A model generated the notes under the pieces. The model saw nothing but the letters and a program-made list of their open reading frames with translations, was not told the DNA's origin and ran no database searches. A stretch of DNA of 64,000 nt from Psychrobacter immobilis. GTDB taxonomy: Bacteria > Pseudomonadota > Gammaproteobacteria > Pseudomonadales > Moraxellaceae. The stretch is from positions 1-64,000 of the forward strand of contig NZ_CAJGZN010000008.1 in assembly GCF_904846235.1 (NCBI RefSeq). The letters are read 5' to 3'. A program made the translations under genes and the position numbers. Of the stretch, positions 17,965-39,979 are shown piece after piece; positions within the stretch are counted from its first letter, which is position 1, and each line of letters begins with the position of its first letter.

Positions 17965-19434
17965 TCACATGACACCTAATTTTGTGTATAAGGCTTTTTT
18001 ACTTATCATATTAGCGTCTAATGGAGCTAAACGTAATGCAGCTTTTAAGTAGGCTACTGCACCTGAGTAATCACGCATTTGCTCGCAAACTAGTATTAAT
18101 TGGCAAAGCACTTTAAATTTCATTGGCGTCTTTTGATTCACTTTTTCCAAGAGGGCTCTTGCTTCTGGATACTTAGCTTCGAGACCAAGTATTGAGGATT
18201 CGAGATACATTGTAGTAGTGTTTTCTTCTGCAGCTTGCTTCCGCTTTAATAGCCAATATTTAGCCTGATTAATATCACGAATTTGTAGATTTGCTTTAAT
18301 GATTAATTCGAATAGATCTAATGGATGCTGCAATTCGCCCTCTAACAAAACTGCTCTGTTCTCTTCAACAATCTTTTCAAACTCAAACAAGCGGTTCGCT
18401 CTATATAGTGCAATGAGTTGTTGGTGTAATGCTTGTAGATCTTTACTACGATTGTACTCTTGGGCAGAGAGTAGAGCGGCTTTTTGATAGGCTTGCTCAG
18501 ACATGGCAGCTATTACTGCACTAGACCAATCTTGCTCAGGCTTACTTTGATATATAGGGTTGATAGTTATTGATTTAAGTTGTTTCTCAACGGCACTATC
18601 AAATGCTTCAACTAATAGCGATACTGACTGATACCTATGTCTAGGTTGTTTTTGAAGGCAAGTCAGCACTACTTGCTCTAAGTCTGAGTGAATAAAGTTA
18701 TTAATTTCTGTAGGTCGCCTAAAAGGTGCATGGCGTTGAACTTGTGCCGGCGTATTATGTGGTAGTTGCCCTGTAATTAGTTGGTACAGTAGTACTCCTA
18801 GACTATAGATATCTCCCAGTAGCAACTCTTCCAAGCTACCTCTCCGGCTATCCACATTAGAGAACTCAGGTGCTGAATAAAGCACGGTGCCGCCATTTTC
18901 CCTAGAGCGAACGTAAATTTCATCAGGTAAAGCTGAGCTACCGAAATCTGTGAGCTTCACTAAATCTTGTTCGCCCACCAAAATATTATGTGGTTTGATG
19001 TCACCATGAGAGATTGGCACTGATAGATTAGCCAAGTAGTGTACAGCGTCAAGTACTTGCCGATAGATACTGAAAAGTCGCTCGTAAGTTTGACCAAAAT
19101 TTCTCTGATGGTCATCTAACTTTTGCGCCAATGTTTGACTGGGAAAGTATTCCATTTCAATATAAAACCATTCATTCTCGATTCGGCCCATATCAAATAT
19201 CTGTACTATATTAGGATGCACCTCAATCCCTAGTAGCTCTTTTCCTTCAGCTAATTCTCTATCTTCACGTGTCATATCTTTAGGTATTTTAACTGCAACA
19301 ATTTGATTATCTTGTAAGCGCTCAGCGCGCCATACCCAGCCATGACTACCATCACCCAAACATTCTAGAAGTAAGTATTTATCACCCAAGCGTTTATTTG
19401 TGCCTGGTAAGAAATGTGCTGACTTTATATTCAC
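17965..19434 (-). CDS. Serine/threonine protein kinase of the defence operon
   Basis: 489 residues. Residues 18-290 are a Hanks-type kinase: glycine loop GDGSHGWVW (27-35), Lys49 in VAVKIPK, catalytic loop SHGDIKPHN (142-150, HGD in place of HRD), DFG at 163-165 and APEF as the APE motif. The C-terminal 190 residues are helical with TPR-like repeats (QALHQQLIALYRANRLFEFE, VAYLKAALRLAPLDANMI), probably a protein-docking part. There is no membrane segment, so it is cytoplasmic. It is the last gene of the eleven-gene operon and overlaps the preceding gene by four bases. Kinases are a known component of MADS and of some BREX types. It may switch the effector on by phosphorylation (inference). Confidence 0.9.
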   Translation of the reverse strand: MNIKSAHFLPGTNKRLGDKYLLLECLGDGSHGWVWRAERLQDNQIVAVKIPKDMTREDRELAEGKELLGIEVHPNIVQIFDMGRIENEWFYIEMEYFPSQTLAQKLDDHQRNFGQTYERLFSIYRQVLDAVHYLANLSVPISHGDIKPHNILVGEQDLVKLTDFGSSALPDEIYVRSRENGGTVLYSAPEFSNVDSRRGSLEELLLGDIYSLGVLLYQLITGQLPHNTPAQVQRHAPFRRPTEINNFIHSDLEQVVLTCLQKQPRHRYQSVSLLVEAFDSAVEKQLKSITINPIYQSKPEQDWSSAVIAAMSEQAYQKAALLSAQEYNRSKDLQALHQQLIALYRANRLFEFEKIVEENRAVLLEGELQHPLDLFELIIKANLQIRDINQAKYWLLKRKQAAEENTTTMYLESSILGLEAKYPEARALLEKVNQKTPMKFKVLCQLILVCEQMRDYSGAVAYLKAALRLAPLDANMISKKALYTKLGVM

Positions 19435-19988
19435 AGTAACACCTCATTGTGAATTCGGTCTAATGCTATTGTTGACAGGATTTTTATAAATATAAACCTG
19501 CTAAGAGTAACTTCTAAATTATGATGAGCAGAAATACGGTTACCAGTTGAAGAGGTAAAGCCATATTTACAGATATTTTTTAGACTTTTTACATCAGGTG
19601 CGTTTACCAATCCTTGGCTCCAAGTACTGAGTACAAGTTGTATTGGGGAGTGCTGCCATCGCTGCGCTGATTCAAGTAGATTTTTTAATTTCTCTTCTAG
19701 CTTAAGCTGACTAGGTTTTGACCCATCGTATCGCTCAAATTCAATTAAGCACAGCGGTTTTGTTGTGTGCATCTCAAACCATCCTGAATCTGAGCGTATA
19801 TCTGCACCAGAAGTCCCAGGCGCTGGACATTCAACAACTGCCATGTAACCTTGATCATGACCGAAGGTATTCCAAACACTACAACCTAAGCTATGTACTA
19901 GAACATCTTGATCTATAAGTTTTGCACTGGTTAATAATGGAAAGTTGTTTGATACCCACTCAAAGTTGGGCAAAGTCATATTAGCCAT
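19431..19988 (-). CDS. Small protein, possible PD-(D/E)xK-type nuclease fold
   Basis: 185 residues from ATG 19988, which overlaps the end of the HerA gene; a longer frame from 20054 is possible but would overlap HerA by 74 bases. The core ADIRSDSGWFEM (62-73) followed by LCLIEFERYDG (79-89) and a helix (LKLEEKLKNLLESAQRW) has the D...ExK strand-helix look of restriction-endonuclease-like folds, but reads E-F-E, so the lysine is missing or moved. It is not assigned to a family. Its place between HerA and the kinase, with overlaps on both sides, marks it as a true part of the system. Confidence 0.6.
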   Translation of the reverse strand: MANMTLPNFEWVSNNFPLLTSAKLIDQDVLVHSLGCSVWNTFGHDQGYMAVVECPAPGTSGADIRSDSGWFEMHTTKPLCLIEFERYDGSKPSQLKLEEKLKNLLESAQRWQHSPIQLVLSTWSQGLVNAPDVKSLKNICKYGFTSSTGNRISAHHNLEVTLSRFIFIKILSTIALDRIHNEVLL

Positions 19989-21666
19989 TAAATGAGCCCC
20001 AAACACGTAATACCTCTGGCGATTCACCACCATGAATGAGAGCTTTACTACCAACTTTAACTAATAGGGGCGCAGGGATTGAACGTCCGCATACTAATGC
20101 TTCACCAGTAGATAGACTTGGTAACTCATCAAGGTCAGCTTTACTTATCATATCTGAGGCCTTAGCAATAAAGCGTTGATCGTCTGGATTCTTTAGTCGC
20201 ATAGTAATTAGAGTGTTACATTGTGAGGTTACGTCAGGATCTAGTTTAGATGGTCGTTGGCTAACAATGCCAAATCCCACACCAAATTTACGTCCTTCCC
20301 CGGCGATTTTTTTAATAATGCGATGACTAACAGCTTTACCGCCTGCAGGTGCAAAGCTGTGGCCCTCTTCATAGATGATAAAGCAAGGACGAAGTGGATC
20401 TGTTTTACTTGAAGCCGCTTTAAGGATTTCACTGGATAATAGAGCACAAACGACTTGTTTTGCTGTATCGCTGAGACCTTGCAAGTCTACAACAACTAAG
20501 CGTCCTTGTTGGTTGTTAGGACGACCAATCATTTTGTATATGTCAGTGGGCTCTGACATAGCAGCACTATAAAAGCTTTTGCCCTCATTAAGAACTCTAG
20601 ATAGCTTCATAGAAGCAACTGCAGCACTTCTACCAGAGAGTGCCTTTGCTTCTGCTTCAGATAAATCACTCCATTCTTTTAACTCTTCAAGTCCATCACC
20701 TAAAAAATGTCTCAAGCGGTTAATGTCTCGTGGTTCAGTCTTATCGGTATAGCGCCAGTAACGAATAGCAACGTCTAAGACACGTTGCTGTGGTTCAGTG
20801 AGTCCTGGAAGGATTTCAGCGATATCATCCATCTCAAAATGATCAAACTGCAAAGCTAAAGGAATGTTCTTACTAGCATATTTGTGTTTGAACTCCTCAT
20901 TTTGCGGTGTATAGATTTGAATGCCAGCACCGGCAGCTTGAAGTTTTTCAAAAGTTTGTTTTATGATCGGTAGGGTTTCTTTATCACGCGTATCTTCACT
21001 AATCTCTAAGTTATCTGCAAACTGTAAGTTACCACCAGCAAGTGCTTTACCGTATTCGCCATGAGGATCAAACACTACGACTGTACCGTTATTGAGAGTT
21101 ACCAAGCGTTCAATAATTCTACCTACTGTGTATGACTTCCCTGAACCTGTCATAGCTAATACTGCCATATGCTCAGTCACTAACTTGTTCACATCGATAA
21201 ATACTGGAACTGTATTTTCGCCCTTGTCGTACCCAACCAAATTACCAAGGTGTAGGCTTGTATGCTCATTAAATTCGTAAAAATCACTTAAAAACTGAAA
21301 ATCAACGGTTTCTACAGCAGTTCCGGGATTTAAAGGTCTACGTGGTATTTTTATTTGTCGTGAAATAGGATCTCGATATCCGACTAACTCAACTTGTGCG
21401 AACATATTCTCGCCAGTAACGTTTGCACTTGGTAGTAGTTCTAACTCAGTAACACCATCACCAAACCCAGCGTTGTAAAGCATATTGCTACGATTAATTT
21501 TAGTTATTCTCCCTAATACTGCTACTTCGCCTTCATCTTTTCTTTCTTGATGCATAATACGGACAAATTCACCGCGTCGAACAGCAAAAGAGTCTTGCAC
21601 GACCATAGTTAATTGGTTTGCGTCACCTGTATTACCAACGAGTTTTCCCAAAACCTTATATACCAT
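19981..21666 (-). CDS. HerA-like hexameric DNA-translocating ATPase
   Basis: 561 residues. There is an N-terminal HAS-barrel-like part (residues 1-130, GEFVRIMHQERKDEGEVAVL), Walker A AMTGSGKSYTVG (171-182), Walker B CFIIYEEGHSFAP near 430, and a downstream GEGRKFGVGFGIVSQRPSKL sensor/arginine-finger segment as in HerA/FtsK ATPases. HerA rings pump DNA and work with NurA nucleases in archaea, and with SIR2 or other effectors in bacterial defence. Here the gene directly follows a NurA-like gene (11-base overlap), which supports a HerA-NurA pair. It probably supplies the motor for DNA degradation by the defence system (inference). Confidence 0.92.
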   Translation of the reverse strand: MVYKVLGKLVGNTGDANQLTMVVQDSFAVRRGEFVRIMHQERKDEGEVAVLGRITKINRSNMLYNAGFGDGVTELELLPSANVTGENMFAQVELVGYRDPISRQIKIPRRPLNPGTAVETVDFQFLSDFYEFNEHTSLHLGNLVGYDKGENTVPVFIDVNKLVTEHMAVLAMTGSGKSYTVGRIIERLVTLNNGTVVVFDPHGEYGKALAGGNLQFADNLEISEDTRDKETLPIIKQTFEKLQAAGAGIQIYTPQNEEFKHKYASKNIPLALQFDHFEMDDIAEILPGLTEPQQRVLDVAIRYWRYTDKTEPRDINRLRHFLGDGLEELKEWSDLSEAEAKALSGRSAAVASMKLSRVLNEGKSFYSAAMSEPTDIYKMIGRPNNQQGRLVVVDLQGLSDTAKQVVCALLSSEILKAASSKTDPLRPCFIIYEEGHSFAPAGGKAVSHRIIKKIAGEGRKFGVGFGIVSQRPSKLDPDVTSQCNTLITMRLKNPDDQRFIAKASDMISKADLDELPSLSTGEALVCGRSIPAPLLVKVGSKALIHGGESPEVLRVWGSFNG

Positions 21667-22804
21667 TATTTAATTCCTCATCTAAGCCAGACAACCAGCG
21701 AGTTTCAATATCATTGTTTTTAAGTGCACCATGTAAGCTTTGGCGATAAAACTTAGTAAATTTGGGCAAAACCCCCAGTTGCTGATAACCTAAAAGCTGA
21801 GGTAGTGGCATAGCATTAGCCTTGCTTTGCATATCAAGCACCATTAAGCGAGCTGCTACTAAGTCTAGGCCTGTCGTTTCCCAGTCTGGCTCGTCGCCAG
21901 CAAGCTGTACCATCTTTATTTGGCCACCACGAGCACTGCGATAATGAAAACCAATTAAGCCTTGTTGAACTTCCATACTTGGCTCTATACGATTTTCTTT
22001 TTCAGATAAACGAAACGCAATAGTACGTGAATAATTTCCTAAAACCCCATTGATGAAGCGCAGATCGCCAACTCCAGCTAGGCTTTCATCTAAATCAGCT
22101 AAGTTCATCATACGCTCTTCAGAGAACCCGTCACTTAGAAGTATTTGTTGACGACCTTTTTCTGAACGTAAATCTTGTTTGGCAATACTGACGATAGCGC
22201 TAAAGCGCTCGGCTAATATGCTGGCAAGAACTACACCTTTTTGGTTCCATGGAAACAGTTTTGCACGGTGTTTTTGCCAAAATGTCTCAATAGCTTGTAA
22301 GGTATTTTCATATTCTTGCTTATGGCGAATATTTCGATCGAGTGGTGCCATATCCCTTGCCAAAAATAGCGGAGTATCTAGTAAGATTAAATCACAGGGC
22401 TCCCCATTTAGTAGTTGTTTTTCCACTAATTGATAAGCTTGACGAATCTCTATCAAGTCTAGACGCTTACGCTGTGCTTCAAAATCAATATCATCGAGTT
22501 CGGAAACAGAGTCGCTACCTTGTGTGCTAACTTTATTGTCTTCAATCAGCAAGTCCGTGCGGACAGCAGCACTAGCATAAATAAATCCGCCAAGCGCTCT
22601 ATCTATGCAAGACTTAGTTGCAATGCCTGATACTCGGAGATTAACCACAGTTGACTTTGGTACTGCTTTAACCAATCCAGCATCACGAAACAATGGAGCC
22701 ACTTGCTCAATGTCTCTAATTTGCTTAAGCAATCTACCAGCACTTCCTGGCAGACGTAACTGGCTATCTATCGCTAAAGACTGTGCTAAATTCATATTTT
22801 TCAT
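21656..22804 (-). CDS. NurA-like nuclease-family protein
   Basis: 382 residues from ATG 22804, chosen because it overlaps the upstream stop as TAATG (a longer frame starts at 22834). The layout follows NurA: a strand-Gly-rich segment NLRVSGIATKSCIDRALGGF (55-74), an AxAVRTDLLI strand, an IEIRQAYQLVEKQLL helix and CDLILLDTPL (137-146). The latter matches the 'LLLDGSL' motif of NurA. NurA is an RNase-H-fold 5'-3' nuclease. The first motif usually contains an Asp-Gly pair where this protein has Ala-Thr, so a catalytic metal ligand may be changed or the alignment shifted. Adjacent to HerA, it is the best nuclease candidate of the operon. The family assignment is tentative. Confidence 0.5.
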   Translation of the reverse strand: MKNMNLAQSLAIDSQLRLPGSAGRLLKQIRDIEQVAPLFRDAGLVKAVPKSTVVNLRVSGIATKSCIDRALGGFIYASAAVRTDLLIEDNKVSTQGSDSVSELDDIDFEAQRKRLDLIEIRQAYQLVEKQLLNGEPCDLILLDTPLFLARDMAPLDRNIRHKQEYENTLQAIETFWQKHRAKLFPWNQKGVVLASILAERFSAIVSIAKQDLRSEKGRQQILLSDGFSEERMMNLADLDESLAGVGDLRFINGVLGNYSRTIAFRLSEKENRIEPSMEVQQGLIGFHYRSARGGQIKMVQLAGDEPDWETTGLDLVAARLMVLDMQSKANAMPLPQLLGYQQLGVLPKFTKFYRQSLHGALKNNDIETRWLSGLDEELNNGI

Positions 22805-23655
22805 TATTGCGTCCCTGTTCTTAACTGTTCGCATAATAGCTCAGCATAAGCCCAATAGTCAGAATTCATGAGTACATTAGACCCTTTTTCAGTTAGTCTA
22901 TTTTCACTAATAAAGCCGTATTGGCATAGATCTAGCCAGCGTTGATCAATCGCTAGGGTAGAGGTATCAAATAACATTTTAACCGCTTGATGCTGACAAA
23001 TCTCTTTCGCTGCGAAACCTGGGATGGCATAGATTAGGAGTAATACTACCTCATCTTTTTTGTCAGGAATAAAATCAGCCTTATTAACTTCAACTATAGA
23101 GAGAGTCGTATCTCCCGAATGAGTAATTAGCCAATTTAGCCAATCCAATAATATATCGCTATGATCTAGTAGGTTTAGAGACCAAAGGGGTAAGGTGGTC
23201 ATCGCAAATAGACCACTGTTACTGTGTTTACGAATATATCGCGTATGAATTACATCAGCTATCTGATGAAGGGTTGCGTTCGAGCTGCCACTAAAACCTA
23301 TAATTTTTTGGGTGATTTCATCGGCTAGTAATTTTGTTAGGCCATCAGTATTAGCATCGATAATATTTGAAGCGGCTGCCAGATGCCAATCAATTTCAAG
23401 TTCAGGTGCTTGCCAGCAGTCAGTTTTACTGGTTAACGGATCCACTACTAATGCTGCGCAACCAGTTTGCATTGACCAATGATACAAGGTTCGCCAATCT
23501 TCTACTTGGTTTAACTCATCACCTTGCACCAGTAGTAAACCTTGTTGGGGTGGGTTGGATTGCCAGTCACTCGTCAATGGCTGCGCTTGTACAATACTAT
23601 GCAAAAAACGCCCTTTGCGATTACTACCCAGTTTAGCTGATATATATATTGTCAC
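22804..23655 (-). CDS. Defence-operon protein of unknown function
   Basis: 283 residues, GTG start at 23655-23653 overlapping the stop of the big ATPase gene (TAGTG). There is no recognised motif. The N-terminal part is alpha/beta (QGLLLVQGDELNQVEDW, GCAALVVDPL) and the C-terminal part looks like a winged helix (WLDLCQYGFISENRLTEKGS). It is embedded with overlaps on both sides between the ATPase and the NurA-like gene, so it is likely an obligate subunit, perhaps a DNA- or partner-binding one. Confidence 0.6.
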   Translation of the reverse strand: MTIYISAKLGSNRKGRFLHSIVQAQPLTSDWQSNPPQQGLLLVQGDELNQVEDWRTLYHWSMQTGCAALVVDPLTSKTDCWQAPELEIDWHLAAASNIIDANTDGLTKLLADEITQKIIGFSGSSNATLHQIADVIHTRYIRKHSNSGLFAMTTLPLWSLNLLDHSDILLDWLNWLITHSGDTTLSIVEVNKADFIPDKKDEVVLLLIYAIPGFAAKEICQHQAVKMLFDTSTLAIDQRWLDLCQYGFISENRLTEKGSNVLMNSDYWAYAELLCEQLRTGTQ

Positions 23656-26600
23656 TAAGCCCCCAAGCTTTCTGCAAAAGTTAAACGCATTTTTAGGATG
23701 CCTTTATCTACCAATATTTGTTGTTGCTGAATGTTCAGCTTTGGCTCTTCATTCTGATTAATGAACTCATAGATACGTTGCCACTCATCTAAAGACAGTC
23801 CAGTCCCACTAAGTGCTTTATTAGCTATTTCTTTCCAGTCATGCAATGTTCTATCACATGTTAGTAGCACCTCGCTCACCATAAGCTCTTTCATGTCTGA
23901 GAGATTCAATACAGTAGGATGAGGGCTAGAGTGCTGCTGAGAGATGAATAAAGGCTTTAGCATGGGTAGCCAGGCATTAACCTCTTTAATAGAGTTATCT
24001 TTCATTTGATTTAAATGTTGACTGATCTTTATTAGATCGCCATGTATGGGGGCGATTTGACCACGAGCAGGCTTTAATAGCTCATCTGGCAAATCTCGAA
24101 GGGCAGTAAACTGACCATTACGAAGGCTGGCTTGTATGAGCTGACGTTTTTGTTCAGCATCAGAAGGCAAGTCCTCTATTGCGTCTTCGATTAACTGTAG
24201 TTTATTAATCAGTTTAGGCAATTTGGCTATATCGTCTGGATGTGGGTAAGAAGCAGGAGCATCTGCTAGCTGCCTGTGGAGGCAAACAGCTTGAGTCTTC
24301 TGTTCAGCCAAGTTGTCCAATAGTTTTTCAAATCGTGTTTTAAAATCACGGTAACTCGTCAGAATATAACCTTGAATATCAGCAAGAGGTAGTTGTTGTT
24401 CGCTTTGTAGGTTCAATCCGACCTCAAATGCTAACGCATTCAATTTCTCCTGTGAATGAGATAAATCGAGTTTTCTTAAATAATGTAACAGTGTATCGCT
24501 ACCAGCTTGCTGCTCTCTTTTACCTGTGGCACTCGTATTATCTTCTTTCAAGGCTCCATCAAGGATATGGCCTATGGTACGTAAAGAATTGGTATAAAGG
24601 GTTTTTGGAAAATTGTTTAGAGTAGAGACATCGTTTTCAATGTCTGCGATTAAGTCGATTAAACGTCCATTGATTTTTTCAGCACTATCTTCAACGAACT
24701 CCGCAAACAAACAGGCTTGTTCGACACGCTGGAATAATGAGGTAGTCTTATCCTCTAAGTTTAAGTCATGTGAGCTCTTTAAGTTTATTTCAGAGCATTG
24801 TATAGGTTTTACTTTTGCTACTAGTGCTAATACATTAGCTCGTTTAGCGATTAGACCAGCAAGTACACCTGTATCACTGAGGTGAGAGATATCCTGTAAT
24901 TGCTCTTCTTTTTGTTTCAGGTCTATAAAAAGCTGGCGAGCTTTCTCAAGTTGCTCTTTGGCTTCCACGGTAGCGTAACCTAATGAGTTTCGACCAATAG
25001 GTGCAAATATATCGTCTATACGACCTTGACCATAGACTCGGCTCATCACCTCAACTTTGGCTTTGTACCCATCGATGCTATCGTCATTAAACCAGTTATT
25101 AGCTTCGATAATCGCATTATCTAATCGGGATCTTGGATAGTTTTGCCATAAAGCTTGTCTATCGTTAGGGTTTTCCAAAGTTAGAAGGTTTAGTTCACCA
25201 CACCACCACATCCACTCATCGAATACGCTCTTCGCTGTATTATTGGTATCACAAATATAGCCAAAATAAAATTTCTGTTTGAAAGATTCGAATTTCCAAT
25301 TCCATTGTTTATTAGGATGTGCGATACGAGATAAAAACAGTGGAATTTGCGCCTGACTACGCTGCGGATTATTAAGCTCAGTAAAAAGACCTGCATGTTC
25401 ATCAGCAGTAAAGCCTTTAGATATAAAGCTACCAGGAACTTTTAATTTGTCTAGTAAGCTCCCGAGCTCTTCCGATGCAACACCATGTTCACGTTGTAAG
25501 TCCATCAGACCGTTAAGGTTGGGATAGCCGATGGCTAAGGTATACCAGCCTTTAAATAATAAGTTACGATCATTCGTTGATAGCTTGCCATCCGCTTTAA
25601 ATGGCCAAGCAATTAAACCCCGCTCATGCAAACGATGACGCCATTTTTGAATAGCATTGGTTGCAAATGTCGTTAGAGCATTTAGCTTATTCCTAAATTT
25701 TGCTGTAAAGCTTTCAGTGTTTAAAGTGATGCTGTGTTTTTCGCACAACGCTAAGCTCAAGCCTATACGCTCTAACTGATCTGTTTCGCTGGAATTCACA
25801 TAGTGTAGTAGTACCGCATCACGCAGTAGAGAATCATTCTCTAAACGGCTGTATTGTTCCATTAAGTGAGCAGAAGCCGTTAATGCCAACACAGGTGTGC
25901 GACCATTTTTGCGTGCGTAATCAGATGCAAAGTCGTGCAATTGGTCCAACTCGGTTTTGTTGCTTATCCATGCAAGTAACACCTTACCATCAGGATGTAG
26001 TTTGAAACCATCTAGTGTAAACAATCCGCCTCGTGGTTCGCTAAGCAGTACTAAAGGCTGACCATTACTACCAGCACTATTACTTAGTAGGGTTTGATCG
26101 TATTTCCAGTTGTTGTCTAATAAACGGATAAAGCCTGTCAAACGAGCCAAAGATTTTAGAATGGGCTTGTGATTACTGTCCTGTAAAAGCTCAGCCATGG
26201 CTTTTTTGTGACCATCACCCATACTAGGGTCTTTGAAAATAAGCGAGTTTTGTTGCACGCTGCGGTAGCGCAAGTCCAGTCGTAATAGCATCGCAACGCT
26301 GGGTCCGATGTGGGTAGCTTCATGTGTATCAAGCTCGGTCGCTTCACCGACCAGTTTTTGCCATAGAGCATCGGCGGCAAATTCAATCGCTGGATGATCA
26401 TATAGTAAGCTCAGTAAGTGCTTAAACTCACCTTTGGACAACGGTAATAACACGGCATGTTTGTCTTCGCTTTGGACCTGCTCTTTGATAGAAAAAGTAG
26501 ATATATTATCGAGCAAAGTATCTAAGCTAAGAGCTTGTTCGACAGCGGGATAGTACCACTCCTCACCTTCACGTCGGAATTTGGCTTCTTCTAGAGCTTT

Positions 26601-27944
26601 TCGACATTGCCAGCGTTCTAGACTTAACTTGCGGTAAAGAGCGGCAATAGGCTCTTCATCTTCGTTTTTAAGCGCTAATAAGTCTTGAGCGTTTGCTATT
26701 TGATTGATTCGAGCGGGTAACTGACCATAGAGTAAGTTTTTACATTCAGCTAATAATGTTTGATCACGAGTTTGAATGCCCTCAATAGCACCTTTATCTA
26801 ATACATGTTTGGCCACCCGACCAGAACCTGCAAGTACTGCTTCAAATAGTTCTCCAATATCATTTAGTTGTCGGTCCGCTTGCTGATAGTGATATAAAAC
26901 AGCATCAACGTTAGCCATGATGACGTTAAACCAGCCAAAGTTTGCGCCGCTCATCGCATAAGCTGCTTCTACCAAGCCAGTAGGGTATTTATATGCCAGC
27001 TTTTCGTCTTTATCTAGGCTTGCTACGTAGTCAGAAACATCGGCAAAGGCGTTATGCTCTAATTCAACCAACTCAAAACGACGCGCGACGGATTGAATCT
27101 CCCGAAGTTGTTGCCCAAGTAGGGGTGAGCATAGCGCCACATAACGCAGCCAATGGAGCTTACGACGAGGGTCCTCTTCCTTGATTGCTTTACCAATTAA
27201 GCGAATAGCCTGACCGTCTAAGCGTTTACTATCATCATCTTCTAGTCCAAAGGTGGCAGCTTCAGCTACAGTTTCCAGCTCGTCTAATACTACGAGTACA
27301 TAAGATATACCAAAGCGCTCTAATACTTTATATGCGGATTGAACAAGATTTACTACCAATGTCGGATCGGTGTATAAATCCTCTTCACTGTGGTCGGCAC
27401 TAAGCTCTAACGCATCCGCTAAATTTTGCGCTGTGAAGCCAAGTGGCATTAAACGCTCATAGGCTTGCTTGGCAATTTCACTTTGAATTGAGCCATCGAA
27501 TTTCTGCGTTGCCAAAGGCAATAATGCCTGATACAAGCCAAAGGCAAACCAGTTATCAGAATTTTGATAGTCAGAGGCAGCTTGAGAGTAGCGAATATAC
27601 AGCGCTAAATATTTATCTTGCGCTTGTGAGTCGAAAAGCTGCTGATCATGTAGACTGCCATTTTTATCACGTACAAACCAACCTCTAGAACAGTCATTTA
27701 TTTGTGCTACCAGCTCATGGCCCAAGCGCGATTTACCGCGGCCCCATTCAGCCTCTATCGCAAAAACATGGGCAAAACGGTCTTCTTCATGGTCTACGGT
27801 GTGTAAAAAGGTTTGAAAGCGCTTAAAAAATCGGCTTTGGCCTACTAACGGATCACTCGGTGGATAGTCAGAAACACCAGTAGCCGCCCAGCGATGTTGC
27901 TTGGCAAGCGTGGCAACTGATTGATCATCTAGTTCAAAATTCAT
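23655..27944 (-). CDS. Very large P-loop ATPase of the defence operon
   Basis: 1429 residues. Residues 30-350 hold a STAND/KAP-like P-loop module: DPLVGQSRFFKRFQ (31-44), Walker A EAEWGRGKSRLG (64-75), Walker B YVLVVLDELETV (215-226). The remaining 1000 residues have no recognised domain and include long helical, possibly coiled-coil parts (EAKEQLEKARQLFIDLKQKEEQLQDI near 985). It overlaps its neighbours by four bases and one base. Large ATPases of 1200-1500 residues are the hallmark of multi-gene systems such as BREX (BrxC/PglY) and MADS, where they act with the methyltransferase in self/non-self discrimination. It probably forms the scaffold of the complex (inference). Cytoplasmic. Confidence 0.8.
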   Translation of the reverse strand: MNFELDDQSVATLAKQHRWAATGVSDYPPSDPLVGQSRFFKRFQTFLHTVDHEEDRFAHVFAIEAEWGRGKSRLGHELVAQINDCSRGWFVRDKNGSLHDQQLFDSQAQDKYLALYIRYSQAASDYQNSDNWFAFGLYQALLPLATQKFDGSIQSEIAKQAYERLMPLGFTAQNLADALELSADHSEEDLYTDPTLVVNLVQSAYKVLERFGISYVLVVLDELETVAEAATFGLEDDDSKRLDGQAIRLIGKAIKEEDPRRKLHWLRYVALCSPLLGQQLREIQSVARRFELVELEHNAFADVSDYVASLDKDEKLAYKYPTGLVEAAYAMSGANFGWFNVIMANVDAVLYHYQQADRQLNDIGELFEAVLAGSGRVAKHVLDKGAIEGIQTRDQTLLAECKNLLYGQLPARINQIANAQDLLALKNEDEEPIAALYRKLSLERWQCRKALEEAKFRREGEEWYYPAVEQALSLDTLLDNISTFSIKEQVQSEDKHAVLLPLSKGEFKHLLSLLYDHPAIEFAADALWQKLVGEATELDTHEATHIGPSVAMLLRLDLRYRSVQQNSLIFKDPSMGDGHKKAMAELLQDSNHKPILKSLARLTGFIRLLDNNWKYDQTLLSNSAGSNGQPLVLLSEPRGGLFTLDGFKLHPDGKVLLAWISNKTELDQLHDFASDYARKNGRTPVLALTASAHLMEQYSRLENDSLLRDAVLLHYVNSSETDQLERIGLSLALCEKHSITLNTESFTAKFRNKLNALTTFATNAIQKWRHRLHERGLIAWPFKADGKLSTNDRNLLFKGWYTLAIGYPNLNGLMDLQREHGVASEELGSLLDKLKVPGSFISKGFTADEHAGLFTELNNPQRSQAQIPLFLSRIAHPNKQWNWKFESFKQKFYFGYICDTNNTAKSVFDEWMWWCGELNLLTLENPNDRQALWQNYPRSRLDNAIIEANNWFNDDSIDGYKAKVEVMSRVYGQGRIDDIFAPIGRNSLGYATVEAKEQLEKARQLFIDLKQKEEQLQDISHLSDTGVLAGLIAKRANVLALVAKVKPIQCSEINLKSSHDLNLEDKTTSLFQRVEQACLFAEFVEDSAEKINGRLIDLIADIENDVSTLNNFPKTLYTNSLRTIGHILDGALKEDNTSATGKREQQAGSDTLLHYLRKLDLSHSQEKLNALAFEVGLNLQSEQQLPLADIQGYILTSYRDFKTRFEKLLDNLAEQKTQAVCLHRQLADAPASYPHPDDIAKLPKLINKLQLIEDAIEDLPSDAEQKRQLIQASLRNGQFTALRDLPDELLKPARGQIAPIHGDLIKISQHLNQMKDNSIKEVNAWLPMLKPLFISQQHSSPHPTVLNLSDMKELMVSEVLLTCDRTLHDWKEIANKALSGTGLSLDEWQRIYEFINQNEEPKLNIQQQQILVDKGILKMRLTFAESLGA

Positions 27945-29197
27945 AGTCCACTTCCTTGAATGTTAATAAGCTTCGCTGCTCGTATGTCTCGTGCCGTTTG
28001 TTTCATAGCTTGTTGTAAGCGCGCGCTTCTATAGCCAAAAATAGGTGCTAGTGGCAAGCTATAGCAAGCATCACCAAAGTCTGGGTTAATGCTATAAAGT
28101 CCTGCTTCATTACGTCCACCTTCCTTAAACTGCCAAATCTGATGGCTTAGTAGGTTTGCAACTAACGGCGCTAATGCTCGGTTGAGGTCATGAGTATCTG
28201 GTACTTGCGGATATATCGAGATATTTAGGTTATTAAGCAGTGCTAGTAAAAATGCTGCCAAATTTCCAACATTGACTTCATCGCCTTCTACGCCTTGCAC
28301 GACCACACTGATTTCTGTTGGCGAAAAGGCATTTTGGTTACTGGGTAATGTAAGTAGCAAGCTATCACGTTGTTCAGCTGCCCAAGCATCCTGTACAAAT
28401 ACGAGTAAGCTTAGAAGGAACAACCAAGGTTGCTGGGTGAACCGGGTTAAATGTGATGAGGTGTCACTACTTGAACCTCGTTCAGTGAGTATCCACGATG
28501 CATGAGGTTTAGTTTGATTTAATAGCGAATAAGGTAGTGCTAATAATCGTCTTGCACACCAGTTTTTATCAAGGGCTTTAGCGCTAGGATCAATGGGCGT
28601 TAGAGAGGTTAGTCTAGAGCCGGCTTCGTGAGCGCTACGCTCGGCAGAGCTAGCCAACTGATAACTGACTCTTAAAATCCTAAGTAGGGCTGGCAAGGCG
28701 GCATTATCGTGCAGGCTATGTCCGATCAGCTCATGCTCTAGATCACTTAATGGTCCAGTACAAAGCTGAGGATTCCTAGAAGTGCCTTCCAGCTCTTCTA
28801 GTACCCATGCACTGGCATTACCCAGTTGGCTAATGATTTTAATCAGCATCTGTGGATCGCGCATATTACCAGCTTCGCGGCAGCGTGCAGCAGCCAAGCG
28901 TAGCCAATGTTCGCGAAAGCTTGGATTTAAGCCTAAGAGAGCCAGTTGCCATTCACCAAGTTGGCTTAATGTACCAAAAGCCGTCAATAGTGGCGCGGTC
29001 AAAGTATATGCAATTGGCGTGTCTGGGTCTTGATTGTCGCTAATAGGTTGTAGCAGCCCGTTTTGCAAAAGTGGTATGGCAGCGAACACCTCAACAGCTT
29101 GTTCGACCGCTATACCACCTCGTTGCCAAAGTAGGGCACAAGTTGTGCTGGCATGTCGCGCTTGTAGCAGTAATGAGGTTTCGCTGATGGCCGTCAT
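27941..29197 (-). CDS. Defence-operon protein of unknown function (418 aa)
   Basis: 418 residues, leucine- and alanine-rich, largely helical (LLLQARHASTTCALLWQRGG, LGEWQLALLGLNPSFREHWL, LFLLSLLVFVQDAWAAEQRD). The last stretch is hydrophobic but has charged surroundings, so it is not a clear membrane segment. No family is recognised. It lies between the specificity subunit (2-base gap) and the giant ATPase (4-base overlap), so it is likely made in step with them and may bridge them. Confidence 0.6.
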   Translation of the reverse strand: MTAISETSLLLQARHASTTCALLWQRGGIAVEQAVEVFAAIPLLQNGLLQPISDNQDPDTPIAYTLTAPLLTAFGTLSQLGEWQLALLGLNPSFREHWLRLAAARCREAGNMRDPQMLIKIISQLGNASAWVLEELEGTSRNPQLCTGPLSDLEHELIGHSLHDNAALPALLRILRVSYQLASSAERSAHEAGSRLTSLTPIDPSAKALDKNWCARRLLALPYSLLNQTKPHASWILTERGSSSDTSSHLTRFTQQPWLFLLSLLVFVQDAWAAEQRDSLLLTLPSNQNAFSPTEISVVVQGVEGDEVNVGNLAAFLLALLNNLNISIYPQVPDTHDLNRALAPLVANLLSHQIWQFKEGGRNEAGLYSINPDFGDACYSLPLAPIFGYRSARLQQAMKQTARDIRAAKLINIQGSGL

Positions 29198-29199
29198 CG

Positions 29200-30723
29200 C
29201 TAGTCCTCACTATCAGCAGCAGTGGCGCTCGCCAGCAAACGATACAGCTCATCTATATCACTGAATAGTGGCGTAGCACCCTCTATAGCATAACCTTCGT
29301 TACTGAGTTTGCTTAATATAGCTTTATCTAATGTATTATCGCCATCTTCTAGCGCTTGCTGGGCTTTAATCAGTTGCTCTTCAGTTAGTTGGCCTTCGAT
29401 TAGCGCTTCGACTAGGGTTTTGGCTGTTCTTATGAGCGATTTTGACGCTCTAGTAGTAAGCTCATAATTTTCTAGTAGAGTTAAACAAGTTGTTTTTTTA
29501 TTTAGAACATAATCTGGGATGTATAATGCAAGTAGCTCTTCTTGACCAATCTGAGGCTGTACAGCGCCATAGCTAATCTTGTGAAGAAGTATTTTTCCGG
29601 CAGTAGAGTTAAGAAAGACTGAGACGGCTGCAGCTGTTTCTTCTTCTTCAAACTCTAAACGAATAAGATGACTACTTATGACACAACCCTTATCTAGTAT
29701 ATTTACTTTGATAGCTGTACCGATAGAGCCTGTTCTTACCACTAATACACATCGCTCATGAATTATAGCTTTTGAAGGTATGCTGATATCTGATCCAATT
29801 TGGGGAGCATCTTGTACATTTAACCGTCCTGAAGATACTTCTGTTACTGTAATATAGGGTACACCTTCATTAACAAAATTACGCTCTTCAAAGCCGTTGG
29901 CAATAGATTTAATCAGAGAGCCTAGTAATGTACCGGATTTTTTAGTAAAACGTTCTACAGCAATTGCTTTACTATCATAATATTTAGGATCAAGACGATT
30001 AGATAAGTCATTTAATGTTGGGTGACTAATTTTGGTGTCAGGTGTGTTACAAGCTACTAGATACTCACTTGTATTCAAAACTTGTTCAATTTCTGATTCC
30101 AGCTCTTTAGCCCAAGCGCGTAGTTGCTCAGCCTGACGAACTTTATCTCCAATATATTTTTGGGCTACCAAATGTGGATAATAAAGATTTACATTTTTTG
30201 TATCTGTAACACCTAAGTATTGAATAATACTACCGAGAGAATAGCGCTGAAGCTGCCCTACACCATAATAACTAAATAAAAATGTGGATATATAATCAAT
30301 ATCTATATGACTCTTAGGTCTAACAGCTATGATGTGTTGAGTTATATTCGCTTTTGGCAATGATTCAGGAACTTTACATATTTTTTCACCAACACTAGCT
30401 TTCACAATAAGTAGGTCGCTAGGCAGAACCTCCGAAGCTTTAAGTTCTTCATGAGATTTGGGAGATAAGTGCACAAAGCTTTCTGTTATAACTTCAAACT
30501 GACCAACATTAGTAACTCGGAATAAAGGTATTCCTTCTTCAACATATAAACTGCTTGGAAGTTTTGAGCCGAACGGACCTGTAAAAAAATGCCCAATAGA
30601 ACCTAGCTTTACGCAATTTAAGTGAGAGAGTACTTCGTCAATAACCAAATATTCAGGACGATAAAAATCAGAATCAAGTCTTTTAGTATTTAAACTGTCT
30701 ACGGATATTTTTCTATAAAACAT
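29200..30723 (-). CDS. Type I-like DNA specificity subunit (HsdS family)
   Basis: 507 residues with two target-recognition units. The first starts RLDSDFYRPEYLVIDEVL, KLGSIGHFFTGPFGSKLP and GIPLFRVTNVG (residues 15-95). The second starts RLDPKYYDSKAIAVERF and GVPYITVTEVSSG (about 235-310). Each is followed by a helical spacer (EQLRAWAKELESEIEQVL). This is the HsdS plan: each half reads one half of a split target and docks on the methyltransferase. The C-terminal 100 residues (LIEGQLTEEQLIKAQQALED...) are an extra tail beyond usual HsdS. Its start overlaps the methyltransferase stop by one base. No HsdR lies nearby, so it serves the MADS-like complex rather than a classical type I enzyme. Confidence 0.9.
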   Translation of the reverse strand: MFYRKISVDSLNTKRLDSDFYRPEYLVIDEVLSHLNCVKLGSIGHFFTGPFGSKLPSSLYVEEGIPLFRVTNVGQFEVITESFVHLSPKSHEELKASEVLPSDLLIVKASVGEKICKVPESLPKANITQHIIAVRPKSHIDIDYISTFLFSYYGVGQLQRYSLGSIIQYLGVTDTKNVNLYYPHLVAQKYIGDKVRQAEQLRAWAKELESEIEQVLNTSEYLVACNTPDTKISHPTLNDLSNRLDPKYYDSKAIAVERFTKKSGTLLGSLIKSIANGFEERNFVNEGVPYITVTEVSSGRLNVQDAPQIGSDISIPSKAIIHERCVLVVRTGSIGTAIKVNILDKGCVISSHLIRLEFEEEETAAAVSVFLNSTAGKILLHKISYGAVQPQIGQEELLALYIPDYVLNKKTTCLTLLENYELTTRASKSLIRTAKTLVEALIEGQLTEEQLIKAQQALEDGDNTLDKAILSKLSNEGYAIEGATPLFSDIDELYRLLASATAADSED

Positions 30724-32867
30724 TATTCACCCCGCTTATAAGCAGAGGCGATTAAATCCAAATCGTTGGGCACGCCAGCATTATAGTCTTCGATATTGTT
30801 CTTCACTAAATAACCTAGCGTTTCAGCCACTGCCATAAATACATCAGTCTGTGGCTCAGGTAAGAACTGCTCGGGCTGATCAGGACTGACACGACGCTTT
30901 TGTAAATACATGATTGAAGTCTTGGCACCAGTACCTGATAATTTAAAACAATCGCTAGGTAGTGATATCACTGCTTTTACGATGGCCTTACCACCGACGA
31001 ACTCACCAGACTGCTCATCCTTCTTACCCATGATGTACTCACGCACATAGCGGTCACCTGAGTTACATAATATGCCATCAGGTAACACGATCATCAGTCG
31101 TCCACCAGGTTTAAGTAGTTGCAAGCAGCGGTCTATAAATAGCACAGCTGGGTCAATGCTCGCACCGACTGGCTTCCAATTCCCTTTTTTATCAGGCTTA
31201 CTACCAAGGGCTAAGCCATCAGTAGAAGGTGCTAGGCTGTAAGTTGGTTTTTTATCAGTACCACCAGTTTGGCGTAAGTCGGTACGGTAGCCTGCCCATT
31301 TAGGGTTGCCGTTTTCATCGAGGTATAAGTCACCAGTATCATCCCAACGCATTTTTAGGTGGTCATAATAGGCGTTATAACTGTCAGTCACCTGTTCTGT
31401 GGGTCGAAAGCCACCGAGTATCTGCTCCATATCAGCTTCATAGGTCTTTTTCGACGCTTGTGCATTTTTATTGTTGGCGAATTTTGGTGTGCCAAACGGC
31501 GGGTTAGTGCAGATGAGATCAAAGCTGTTAGGCTTGAGCGCGGCGGTGGTTAGTGAATTGTCCGTATAAAATATCTGAGCCTTTGGAGCGCCTTGTAATG
31601 CCATGTTGACCCGTGCCAGCATCACCATACGCGGTGCAGCATCAGCACCCGTGAAGCCTTCATTACGCAGTTTCTCTTTTAGTGCTTCTTTTTCATAATC
31701 ATTTAATCCACCAAGCTGGGTATCGATAAGATGGTCTAATTGACTTAATGCCACTGAGCCAAAGCCAAATGAGCCACAGGTTGGATCACAGAAGCGGAAG
31801 TCGCCATTAGATAAGCGGGCGATAGCCTCATCGTCATTAGCGATATCGTTGATGGCTATCTCTAACATGGCTTGCTTGACAGGATTAGGAGTGAGGTAGA
31901 CACCTAGGCCGCCTTTGGACTCAAAGTTAGCACGCAAGAATACATCGAATACTCGGCCTAATAAATCACCAGAGACATCGCCTAAGGTACCTTGTTCTTT
32001 GGATATGCGTCCATCGTTATAAATGACTGGACCAAGATTTTGTAAGGCTTCAAGTAAATCTTCATAGTTTTTTGGTACAGATAATCTCAAATGAGTATCT
32101 TCCGAAAAAATAGCGTTATGCGAGCCATCATCACTGGTGACAATATAATCCTTATGTGATTTAAACTCATTAAAAGCATCTTTGATTAAGTTGACCGCTT
32201 TATCACCTTCTTTTTTTACATATTGCCAATTAAATACAGAGCTAAATAGGTGTTTATTACCCTGTTTATCAGTGAACTGAATATCAGGGTGATAAATACG
32301 AAAGCTCTCTAAAAATAACAGCTTGGCTACTTCTTCAATAATATCGTTTTTATCATTAACTTTATCTTTAGTAACGCGATAGACGTTTTCGTGAAACGCA
32401 TCGAAGCGGTGCATTAGGTGCGTATAGATACGCATGGACCAGCGAAAAGTAGGATCACGCTCTAACCGATCGAAACTGTTTAATTCCTCTAAGCTGGGAA
32501 GAACATCGACACCATGGGTACCATCAGAGCCATCAGAACCAAATAAACTCAGAATACGGCTATTGGTGCCATCGCTGATAACAGCGAATACCGGCCAATC
32601 GCTGTCAGTATCACTAAGTAGCGTATAGGCTAAATCATCAAACTTAGCCGTATCAGCCGCATTTTCCCAATGACCTTCTGCCAGCGCTAGTAGCATAACA
32701 GGTGGTGTCAGATTGCCTTCTACCATTCCCTGTATTAAGCCTGCTTTGGCAAACTCGTGTGATGATAGCTCTAATACGGGTTGATCGAAATTTCGATGTT
32801 GTTTAACCAGATGATTAAAGAGGTCAGTTAGTTGAGCTTGTTTGTCGATTTTATTGTCTTTTGCCAT
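30723..32867 (-). CDS. N6-adenine DNA methyltransferase (HsdM-like)
   Basis: 714 residues. There is an N-terminal helical HsdM-type region, then the SAM-binding motif I DPTCGSFGFG (about 357-366) and the catalytic motif IV NPPFGTP (about 454-460, NPPF). A late segment GGRLMIVLPDGILCNSGDRY resembles the HsdM motif 'GGR.A.VLP.G.LF'. It transfers a methyl group from SAM to adenine within the sequence chosen by the specificity subunit, marking host DNA as self. It is longer than common HsdM (about 520), due to extra N-terminal sequence. It heads the main coupled block, after two small genes. Confidence 0.93.
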   Translation of the reverse strand: MAKDNKIDKQAQLTDLFNHLVKQHRNFDQPVLELSSHEFAKAGLIQGMVEGNLTPPVMLLALAEGHWENAADTAKFDDLAYTLLSDTDSDWPVFAVISDGTNSRILSLFGSDGSDGTHGVDVLPSLEELNSFDRLERDPTFRWSMRIYTHLMHRFDAFHENVYRVTKDKVNDKNDIIEEVAKLLFLESFRIYHPDIQFTDKQGNKHLFSSVFNWQYVKKEGDKAVNLIKDAFNEFKSHKDYIVTSDDGSHNAIFSEDTHLRLSVPKNYEDLLEALQNLGPVIYNDGRISKEQGTLGDVSGDLLGRVFDVFLRANFESKGGLGVYLTPNPVKQAMLEIAINDIANDDEAIARLSNGDFRFCDPTCGSFGFGSVALSQLDHLIDTQLGGLNDYEKEALKEKLRNEGFTGADAAPRMVMLARVNMALQGAPKAQIFYTDNSLTTAALKPNSFDLICTNPPFGTPKFANNKNAQASKKTYEADMEQILGGFRPTEQVTDSYNAYYDHLKMRWDDTGDLYLDENGNPKWAGYRTDLRQTGGTDKKPTYSLAPSTDGLALGSKPDKKGNWKPVGASIDPAVLFIDRCLQLLKPGGRLMIVLPDGILCNSGDRYVREYIMGKKDEQSGEFVGGKAIVKAVISLPSDCFKLSGTGAKTSIMYLQKRRVSPDQPEQFLPEPQTDVFMAVAETLGYLVKNNIEDYNAGVPNDLDLIASAYKRGE

Positions 32868-32926
32868 GAGGTATTTTAATTCCTAAGATTTGGTATTTGA
32901 ATGTTCAGATGGTTGTTTGATGGATG

Positions 32927-33310
32927 TTAAGTATCAAGTACCAAAAATGGTCCTTTGACGTTCATTTGGTGGTTTTGTTCAGCCAGTTTACGTAATTGTT
33001 GCTCAGTGGTAGTCGTGCCAGCTGGTAGTTTCTTTAATACCTGTGTGAGAAGCATGCGCCCACCAGACTTTCGCAGTAGAGCAGTTAAGTGCTCTGTGAT
33101 ATTGGAGGTTGTTTGATATGCTGATTTAGATTCGTTTAATATGTTACGTGCTGGCAAGGAGGCTAGCCATAGTGTTACTTGGGCTTGATTAAAGCCTAAA
33201 AAATGCCAAAGCTCCTGCTGTTCACTAAAGAGGTCATCTGCAGATTTTTTTGACGTTTTAAGTTGATCAATAAGCTGATTAAGTAATGAGTTTTGAGTTT
33301 CTTGATGCAT
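32927..33310 (-). CDS. Small defence-operon protein, possible winged-helix
   Basis: 127 residues with no recognised family. The N-terminal part is helical (SLLNQLIDQLKTSKKSADDL), followed by an LWHFLGFNQAQVTLWL segment. The C-terminal 55 residues (LTALLRKSGGRMLLTQVLKK, TTTEQQLRKLAEQNHQ) look like a winged helix. It starts two bases after the HTH gene and ends 59 bases before the methyltransferase. It is probably a regulator or small subunit of the system. Confidence 0.6.
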   Translation of the reverse strand: MHQETQNSLLNQLIDQLKTSKKSADDLFSEQQELWHFLGFNQAQVTLWLASLPARNILNESKSAYQTTSNITEHLTALLRKSGGRMLLTQVLKKLPAGTTTTEQQLRKLAEQNHQMNVKGPFLVLDT

Positions 33311-33312
33311 AG

Positions 33313-33501
33313 CTATTCCTTGATCGTGGCTTGCTCAGTTTGCTTTAACACCCAAGTATCGAGGTCACTGCGTTTAAAACGCCAAGCATTGCCTACGCGA
33401 AATCCTGGTAACTCATTACTAGCTGCCAATCGATAAATAGTTCTCTCATTGACCTTGAGGTATTCGGCCACTTCTTTGATAGTCAAAACTTCACTGTCCA
33501 T
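33313..33501 (-). CDS. Excisionase-family helix-turn-helix protein, first gene of the defence operon
   Basis: 62 residues. A MerR/excisionase-type HTH: LTIKEVAEYLKVNERTIYRL, then GFRVGNAWRFKRSDLDTWV, the usual full length of this domain. It opens the eleven-gene operon and has AGGAG about nine bases upstream of ATG 33501. Such single-domain proteins often head defence or mobile clusters and could control the operon promoter at 33545-33572. Confidence 0.85.
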   Translation of the reverse strand: MDSEVLTIKEVAEYLKVNERTIYRLAASNELPGFRVGNAWRFKRSDLDTWVLKQTEQATIKE

Positions 33502-33544: not shown

Positions 33545-33572
33545 AGTTTATACCAGTGGCTAGCTGTGTCAA
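33545..33572 (-). promoter_or_regulatory. Probable promoter of the defence operon
   Basis: Reading leftward, a -35 TTGACA at 33572-33567, a 16-base spacer and a -10-like TAAACT at 33550-33545 (four of six). The -35 lies between the arms of a small inverted repeat, CTGTGT/ACACAG, at 33564-33584, a possible operator. The first gene starts 44 bases downstream. Confidence 0.5.
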
Positions 33573-33642: not shown

Positions 33643-33679
33643 AAAGTCCGAGACCTGTGTTAGACAGGTCTCGGACTTT
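33643..33679 (-). terminator. Strong rho-independent terminator after the DUF3631 gene
   Basis: A perfect 16-base stem, AAAGTCCGAGACCTGT (33643-33658) with its reverse complement at 33664-33679, and a five-base loop. On the minus strand the stem is followed by seven T. It ends the satellite-module transcript before the defence operon promoter. Confidence 0.9.
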
Positions 33680-37998: not shown

Positions 37999-38074
37999 TG
38001 GTGCGCCCACCAAGACTCGAACTCGGATCGATCGCTTAGGAGGCAACTGCTCTATCCTGTTGAGCTATAGGCGC
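37999..38074 (-). tRNA. tRNA-Arg (CCT anticodon)
   Basis: Read leftward from 38074: acceptor GCGCCTA pairs with TGGGCGC, discriminator A and encoded CCA end at 37999. The D arm is GCTC/GAGC, the anticodon loop CTCCTAA gives CCT (reads AGG), and the T loop is TTCGAGT. The cloverleaf is complete. Its 3' end faces the integrase and is the likely insertion site of the island. Confidence 0.95.
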
Positions 38075-39560: not shown

Positions 39561-39979
39561 TAGAAAGTGTTATTTAGATACAGGTTGTAAAGGCCAATTT
39601 AAAAACCACAATGAGGTTATTTCATTGTAAATATGAATGATAGTATAAAACGACACTAAATGTCGCAAGCTTATTATAATATCGGCATCTACACTAGTAA
39701 ACGATAACCATCAATGGCACACTGATAGCAAATTTGGCAAGTCAACGTTATCAATGGATATGTAGAGTTTGCTACTATGATTGTTTTTGTTTATGGCCCT
39801 CATGCTAGCAGAAATGCATCATAGTAACGACCATCAAACATGGATTGATGAGTATCGATTTTTGTTTTGTCTAGATATTTTATGGTGTTTTTGACATTGG
39901 ATATAGACATCTCATCTACAAGTGAAGCCTTTTTTATTAATCCTAATATCTCACCTTTATTGCAATCAGATTATTGTCT
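39561..39979. other. Non-coding gap upstream of recC
   Basis: About 420 bases between divergent genes. A small hairpin (GCGACAT / rough ATGTCGT around 39654-39668) is visible; otherwise I see no gene, RNA or clear promoter consensus. Promoters for recC and the leftward gene should lie here. Confidence 0.4.

Follow-up and report, generated by a model that had tools for sequence, protein, structure and literature searches.

A ten-gene Psychrobacter operon joining an HsdM–HsdS module to a HerA-family translocase: a candidate modification-guided defence system

The DNA analysed here, referred to throughout as the window, is a stretch of 64,000 nucleotides from Psychrobacter immobilis (contig NZ_CAJGZN010000008.1, positions 1 to 64,000). 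Its minus strand carries a run of eleven open reading frames (ORFs), genes A to K, at 17965–33501, the last ten of which (B–K, 17965–33310) form a core that includes an HsdM-type methyltransferase (C), an HsdS-type specificity subunit (D), a giant P-loop ATPase (F), a HerA-family translocase (I) and a Ser/Thr kinase (K). Our results favour the view that B–K constitute a modification-guided, HerA-driven defence system, for which no name was found, and we regard this as reasonably probable. In broader terms, the ten genes are a real, conserved and mobile system with a probable defensive role. The interpretation draws on the observed gene set and order, the catalytic motifs, the exchange of target domains in HsdS, the spread on islands, the exchange with a bacteriophage exclusion (BREX) system at the same site, the absence of a linked HsdR and a pattern of natural deletions.

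The ten-gene unit and its exchangeable first gene

H, scanned over genome contigs with one genome per species (84,980 species), returned 31 loci, and in 26 of these the nine genes HsdM-HsdS-E-F-G-H-HerA-J-kinase (C–K) lie in the same order on the same strand. One of the 26, L031, is counted as intact despite split frames in C, F and I, and three further loci (L014, L023 and L025) are broken off by a contig end. The median spacing between neighbours is −4 for six of the eight gene pairs. Gene B is present in 26 of 29 genomes tested. In 25 of 26 upstream regions the next gene is HsdM, the exception (L093) being a contig that ends after B. Because the nine-gene order is conserved in 26/31 loci, chance is excluded, and the operon is a real conserved unit of ten genes, B–K. 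Median identity to the window protein is 85% for HerA, 73% for HsdM, 69% for H, 60% for the kinase and 55% for F, followed by J (49%), E (41%), B (39%), HsdS (34.5%) and G (33%). Additional DNA is rare among the loci: ∼1.2 kb between D and E in L016 and L017, and 0.64–0.9 kb between E and F in L016, L017 and L032.

In the window, the single minus-strand operon put forward in a preliminary description of this DNA is borne out, since all eleven ORFs exist and overlap or nearly touch. HsdM and HsdS overlap by 1 base, E and F by 4, F and G by 1, G and H by 31 as called, H and HerA by 11, and J and the kinase by 4, with gaps of 59 bases between B and HsdM and 2 bases each between A and B and between HsdS and E. 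Gene J as called (207 amino acids) overlaps HerA by 74 bases; relatives indicate an ATG start at 19988, giving a protein of ∼185 residues and an overlap of 8 bases.

The same description had counted eleven genes to the system. The conservation of B–K is in agreement with this, but gene A is replaced in 19 of the 26 upstream regions, which reduces the system to ten genes. An A-like helix-turn-helix (HTH) gene precedes B in seven regions; its place is taken by McrB-McrC in four, by an HsdS-like ORF of 456–541 amino acids in seven, by a 313-residue protein in three (the one tested is WYL) and by other genes in five. Given this variation ahead of B, A is an exchangeable gene with a regulatory or sensory role and not part of the core. 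The HsdS-like ORF stands directly before B in L089, L090, L091, L092, L093, L096 and L097; three of these first genes were checked in PADLOC, and a seven-member profile aligns with D (hhalign 98.1%, E 1e-13). It may serve as a regulator that reads methylation or as an additional target reader. Upstream of A lie a promoter-like and a terminator-like site (Table 1), which are no more than suggestive, since the counts over the region do not exceed chance (38 promoters against 40.6 and 10 terminators against 13.1 in shuffled sequences).

The modification module, the motor and the candidate nucleases

HerA, HsdM, HsdS, the kinase and the HTH protein all exceed their Pfam cut-offs. Gene C matches the PADLOC model MTase_I PDLC03023 over its full length with 1394 bits, and gene D matches PDLC03120, also over its full length, with 334 bits. 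The HsdM motif NPPF is found in 50/50 sequences and DP[TA]CG[ST] in 48/50, the window protein included. Pairwise comparison of HsdS in 40-residue windows revealed that, relative to the protein studied here, the first target domain of a close Psychrobacter relative (L003) is 88–100% and the second 15–38% identical, while in another close Psychrobacter (L004) the first is 12–40% and the second 88–100% identical; in the same two pairs HerA is 99% and HsdM 95–96% identical. Five of six other pairs, two E. coli strains included, differ in both domains with the C-terminal end kept, and in the sixth (L027/L030) the C-terminal end is merely 42–58% alike. The two target domains of HsdS are therefore swapped independently of each other, which is a signature of restriction-modification; domain shuffling is known for type I specificity subunits. 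No HsdR is linked to the locus in the 30 genomes searched with HSDR_N, as the preliminary description had also noted for the operon. Matches are present in 18 of these genomes and absent from 12, and they sit on contigs other than that of the locus or more than 400 kb away (G288 and G298). For L014 and L029, none of the 13 HSDR_N loci in their genomes overlaps the operon stretch.

The HerA-family protein carries TGSGKS in 34/34 sequences. Its best match in the PDB, with 168 bits against at most 118 for the eight others, is 9X1L, the Thermococcus kodakarensis HerA-NurA complex (PMC12977600). Among six plasmid HerA neighbourhoods, NurA is annotated nearby in three, SIR2 in one and neither in two, and the three NurA-adjacent proteins are haloarchaeal and 28–29% identical where shown.

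Gene H had been called NurA-like in the preliminary description, and this assignment found no confirmation. A single member of 34 touches the Pfam NurA model, at E 0.058, and the NurA cut-off is reached in none of 22 carrier genomes in a six-frame search; by eye, the DTPL motif of H resembles DGPL of NurA. H has no match outside known carriers in 369 genomes of the class or in 297 genomes of the phylum of L022, where the genome of L022 itself is the only one to hold it, and H is therefore the signature family of the system. The motifs of J are EFER[FY] in 32/32 and DIRxDSxWF in 28/32 sequences; no family of PADLOC, Pfam or NCBIfam matches the protein, and its PDB matches are not convincing. 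Its conserved D...ExE, which we take to resemble a PD-(D/E)XK active site, makes J the better candidate nuclease of the two.

The N-terminal domain of F is KAP-like, with 23 of 27 members matching KAP_NTPase (best E 1.5e-4); the window protein itself does so at E 0.009 and 15.7 bits, below the cut-off of 20. A Walker A motif, EWGxGKSR, is found in 30/31 and LDELE in 31/31 sequences. The kinase motifs HGDxKPxN and DFG are present in 31/31 members of K, and TPR matches in its C-terminal part stay below their cut-offs. At the thresholds used, B, E, G, H and J match nothing in PADLOC, Pfam or NCBIfam, B having sub-cut-off Pfam matches only, and profiles of B, E, F, G, H and J found nothing convincing among PDB structures. 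The best hit of the F profile (E 0.012), to coiled-coil viral chains, was taken as spurious, and the best for G has E 0.26. For B, the sub-significant matches include some Z-DNA-binding domains (E 0.33–0.66), and a winged helix is possible.

Spread, island site and natural deletions

The system is present in a small part of the E. coli population. HerA was found in 252 of 5,426 complete genomes, in 249 of them at 80% or more of its length and always on the chromosome, and 207 genomes (∼4%) hold at least 80% of B–K; B–K matches 289 chromosomal places and a single place on a plasmid. All ten genes are carried by E. coli W and by KO11FL, which we take to be its derivative. In the five intact E. 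coli loci that were read, genes for a 'phosphorothioated DNA-binding' endonuclease, for McrB and for McrC stand immediately upstream of B, and the corresponding Pfam matches (one set each) are HNH_2, AAA_5 and McrBC. This block lies at L044:1-4352, L106:4551-9004 and L141:114-4567, with McrC overlapping B by 4 bases. In all five loci RefSeq labels B, E, F, G, H and J as hypothetical.

In the midpoint-rooted HerA tree, Vibrionaceae are split over three positions and Moraxellaceae over two. A Fibrobacter and a Desulfobacteraceae bin fall among Pseudomonadota; the nine-row clade that holds them has support of 93/95, and the forks nearest to these two are weaker. As the tree mixes families and phyla, the system moves horizontally. 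Two IMG/VR contigs hold H, and within the genus it is found in 2 of 36 genomes, that of the window counted. Plasmids gave no match for F or H, and their HerA matches are all less than 60% identical; phages gave two weak HerA matches.

The operon is flanked on one side by three consecutive ORFs (10837–16871; 189, 770 and 1062 amino acids), of which the third encodes a tyrosine recombinase, and on the other by an integrase gene at tRNA-Arg, beside recC. The three-ORF block recurs in two genomes of the same genus, G003 and G010. In G010, which is without H, a BREX operon lies between the recombinase block and the integrase/tRNA-Arg (L128, G010:C11:16500-36400), with matches to BrxA, BrxB, BrxC, PglX and PglZ models of at least 229 bits; by gene content it is type 1. 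The recombinase block is 84–89% and the integrase end 88–93% identical to the window at nearly equal distance. In G009 (L130, G009:C5:135900-150000) the integrase end is 81% identical and the cargo is different again; a match to a type I restriction enzyme, scoring 134 bits, is part of it. The tRNA-Arg site is thus a hotspot that exchanges defence cargo, and the view of the preliminary description that the operon sits on an exchangeable genomic island holds. The search for attachment repeats at the tRNA gave only a 13-base repeat at 9298–9310, which was not used.

Natural deletions in E. coli bear on how the parts depend on each other. HsdM, F and the HerA-J-K stretch are present at 80% or more in 209, 208 and 245 genomes, respectively. 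In a survey of 60 evenly spaced rows of 267, coverage of C–I was at least 90% in 46, 74% in one and at most 35% in 13. Seven partial loci were opened, five of them without HsdM. In MS6192, 41, 4600 and PEB08-01 the genes HsdM, HsdS, E and F are wholly or largely deleted, as is G in the last three; all four retain HerA, J and K. In ECCRA-119, the row with 74%, HsdM is gone, little of HsdS is left and E, F, G, H and HerA are kept; its J is shortened and followed by an insertion sequence, with no kinase in the 7 kb beyond. The converse locus, 2017.18.04CC, keeps B, HsdM, HsdS and E, and J-8 keeps HsdM and HsdS together with a frameshifted F, a J shortened as in ECCRA-119 and no kinase in the stretch read. 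In all five opened loci lacking HsdM, either F or J plus K is lost too, as is expected if F, J and K attack unmarked DNA.

Of the surroundings of the island, recC occupies 39974–44461, and two further long ORFs within 39974–51533 are probably recB and recD. Positions 240–6754 hold genes for a glycosyltransferase, a GTP cyclohydrolase II-NADAR fusion, an asparagine synthase/GATase and a sub-cut-off NAT-like protein, a cluster that is possibly another island module, and a HicB-like antitoxin gene lies at 8026–8436.

Table 1. Features of the operon and its integration site in the window
Feature	Position	Strand	Remarks
Gene A, 62-aa excisionase-type HTH	33313..33501	-	HTH_17 E 2e-19; exchangeable, non-core
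Gene B, 127-aa core protein	32927..33310	-	in 26/29 genomes; possibly winged helix
Gene C, HsdM-type N6-adenine methyltransferase, 714 aa	30723..32867	-	N6_Mtase; PADLOC MTase_I
Gene D, HsdS-type specificity subunit, 507 aa	29200..30723	-	two target-recognition domains; Methylase_S; PADLOC Specificity_I
Gene E, 418-aa core protein	27941..29197	-	conserved in system; no known family
Gene F, 1429-aa P-loop ATPase	23655..27944	-	KAP-like N-terminal domain; KAP_NTPase, Walker A
Gene G, 283-aa core protein	22804..23655	-	fast-evolving; no known family
Gene H, 392-aa HerA neighbour	21656..22834	-	resembles NurA only in places; signature family
Gene I, HerA-family translocase, 561 aa	19981..21666	-	DUF87 E 6.6e-46, HAS-barrel E 1e-6
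Gene J, candidate nuclease, ~185 aa	19431..19988	-	probable start 19988; conserved D...ExE
Gene K, Ser/Thr kinase, 489 aa	17965..19434	-	Pkinase E 1.9e-33; weakly TPR-like C-terminal tail
Sigma-70-like promoter before gene A	33545..33572	-	TTGACA-16-TAAACT, 10/12
Intrinsic-terminator-like hairpin	33643..33679	-	upstream of operon; 16 pairs, 8 G-C, T tail
Island tyrosine integrase	36320..37786	-	Phage_integrase E 6e-20
tRNA-Arg (CCT), presumed integration site	37999..38074	-	

Working model, alternatives and relation to known systems

Our results suggest how such a system may work. Judging from their families and motifs, HsdM and HsdS would methylate adenines at a two-part target of the host and thereby provide the self mark. 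F, with E, G and B, may form or load a complex that recognises unmarked DNA and would pass it to the HerA ring, which would pump the DNA to the nuclease parts, presumably J and perhaps H. K may switch or license the attack, or serve as a back-up effector. We put it at about an even chance that the operon represents a distinct undescribed restriction class, in which HsdM-HsdS methylation is coupled to a KAP-like ATPase, a HerA degradation machine, nuclease J, a degenerate NurA-like H, a kinase switch and exchangeable first genes that sense or regulate (an Xis-like HTH, WYL, McrBC or an additional HsdS-like protein). We rate the operon as a variant of modification-associated defence, and the chance that it forms a separate class is fair.

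Several observations weigh against a modification-guided, HerA-driven defence system. It is rare across species, H being found in none of 368 other genomes of the class, and two of the 31 loci (L022 and L029, both metagenome bins) are without the upstream genes in the available sequence. The likeness of HerA is unspecific: the archaeal HerA 4d2i, presumably that of Sulfolobus, scores only 115 bits, like the bacterial ones, and the match to 9X1L is therefore weak support for a NurA partner. Alignment of H with five true NurA proteins by hhalign gave 0.18%, a positive control of NurA against NurA likewise giving only 0.14%. At the position of the NurA motif-I aspartate, H has by eye S, A or V; in the archaeal HerA-NurA, the NurA substitution D49A abolishes cleavage (PMC12977600), and on our reading this Asp49 corresponds to motif I. 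The assignments of J as a nuclease and of H as NurA are based on motifs and are putative. Finally, the deletion argument consists of five contiguous, perhaps clonal deletions and is weak evidence.

Abortive infection, in which modified DNA quiets the complex and phage sensing activates K to stop the cell, with HerA and H/J sensing rather than degrading, is an unlikely alternative to DNA degradation. It would account for the intact catalytic motifs of all 31 kinases, and the kinase protein of the methylation-associated defence system (MADS) also bears a nuclease-like NERD domain. ECCRA-119, the sole opened E. coli locus with F and without HsdM, shows no kinase in the stretch read, which speaks for this view; however, J is truncated there too, so that the two are inseparable, and the four other HsdM-less loci keep HerA, J and the kinase, so that the kinase alone is not toxic. 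A further point against it is the conservation of HerA, which is the highest of all (median 85%) and points to a mechanical role at the centre of the system. It is less likely still that the operon blocks phage DNA replication without cutting, in the manner of BREX and with F in the place of BrxC. A giant ATPase, a methyltransferase, the lack of a linked HsdR and the site shared with BREX in the same-genus relative would be consistent with this, but no PADLOC model matches F at E 0.01, BREX does not comprise HsdS, HerA, H or J, and PglZ, BrxA, BrxB and BrxC are absent among the PADLOC matches listed for the ten proteins (for C, D and K the best 25 of 29, 62 and 34, respectively). Models of the same names match the G010 operon strongly.

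Least probable, and in our judgement very unlikely, is a divergent subtype of MADS (Maestri et al. 2024, cited in PMC11980395). For comparison, two Pseudomonas loci with MAD6 over its NCBIfam cut-off were taken from 298 genomes, the model exceeding its cut-off in none of 229 genomes of a class-wide sample; in one of these loci MAD2–MAD7 each exceed theirs, and MAD1 was identified in neither. The ORF of 1852 residues after MAD7, which has no Pfam match, was labelled MAD8 by position alone, and the profile comparison covered MAD2–MAD7 and this positional MAD8 with one or two sequences per protein. In favour of this reading, hhalign relates C to MAD2 (99.7%), D to MAD5 (99.8%) and the kinase domain of K to MAD6 (99.4%), and HerA weakly to the ORF after MAD7 (68% over 135 columns); HerA also scores 87.8 bits against PADLOC mad8. 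Nevertheless, HsdM, HsdS and the kinase reach only 110, 127 and 117 bits against the MAD2, MAD5 and MAD6 models, whose cut-offs are 720, 400 and 460. B, E, F, G, H and J stay at or below 0.9% against the MAD proteins compared, and MAD3, MAD4 and MAD7 at or below 4.5% against the ten core families; these profiles are thin and the former result is weak alone, but the full-profile NCBIfam models of MAD3, MAD4 and MAD7 agree, giving no match to the ten core proteins at E 0.01 and matching the Pseudomonas locus strongly. In addition, MAD6 has ∼1,400 residues with NERD and two kinase stretches, and K has 489. A MADS subtype is already contradicted by the sequences. The preliminary description had seen a fit to MADS and a possible new subtype of it: the methyltransferase, HsdS, kinase and HerA content does recall MADS, but profile searches against the Mad families do not carry the subtype, six of the ten core proteins matching no MAD protein compared.

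If the proposed working of the modification-guided system is correct, a type I modification module would have been rewired to an unrelated HerA-based effector, which would explain a block of six 'hypothetical' proteins in ∼4% of complete E. coli genomes. The operon would then be a test case for the methylation guidance of HerA machines, for the part that kinases play in defence and for the question of whether a NurA-like protein can cut when it lacks the motif-I aspartate.

No open-access PMC paper found describes this gene set, which may have been described in preprints or subscription journals. SXT/R391 elements were rejected as a published source of the operon, their HerA-like gene lying in HS4 and BREX in HS5, apart, according to partial text (PMC7251087), as was a paper on E. 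coli defence islands, in whose partial text HerA occurs once, as the SIR2-HerA of Gao. RptR, compared by description only (PMC12255303), was set aside as a match for A or B. Among HerA-containing systems, the closest solved HerA is that of Thermococcus HerA-NurA, where the HerA neighbour has a similar-looking motif (DGPL, against DTPL in H); the archaeal complex depends on NurA Asp49, whereas H is by eye without the motif-I aspartate (PMC12977600). The anti-phage systems SIR2-HerA and DUF4297-HerA share the HerA translocase but have two components (PMC12948488), and neither SIR2 nor DUF4297 has a Pfam match in the operon proteins. HerA/FtsK capture and BREX-related capture systems, for which a capture-and-degrade logic has been proposed, likewise combine HerA with a large P-loop ATPase in a defence operon; they have PglZ, DUF6079, DUF4007, or DndFGH and related parts (PMC10853773, PMC12839542). 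The terms NurA, HsdM and HsdS do not occur in the text of PMC10853773, nor NurA in that of PMC12839542.

BREX type 1 shares multi-gene, modification-linked defence and, in the same-genus relative, the island site; the operon differs from it in having HsdS, HerA and a kinase. The preliminary description was also right to set DISARM (defence island system associated with restriction-modification) and BREX apart by gene content: no DUF1998 has a Pfam match in the operon proteins, and no Drm protein, like no PglZ, is among the PADLOC matches listed above. Type I restriction-modification shares HsdM and an HsdS with two exchangeable target domains, but the operon has no linked HsdR and eight further core genes. 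MADS resembles it in a methyltransferase, HsdS, a protein kinase domain and a weakly related HerA-like ATPase, and differs in gene order and protein sizes. The system is therefore related to MADS by theme and four parts and to type I restriction-modification by two, and is a member of neither.

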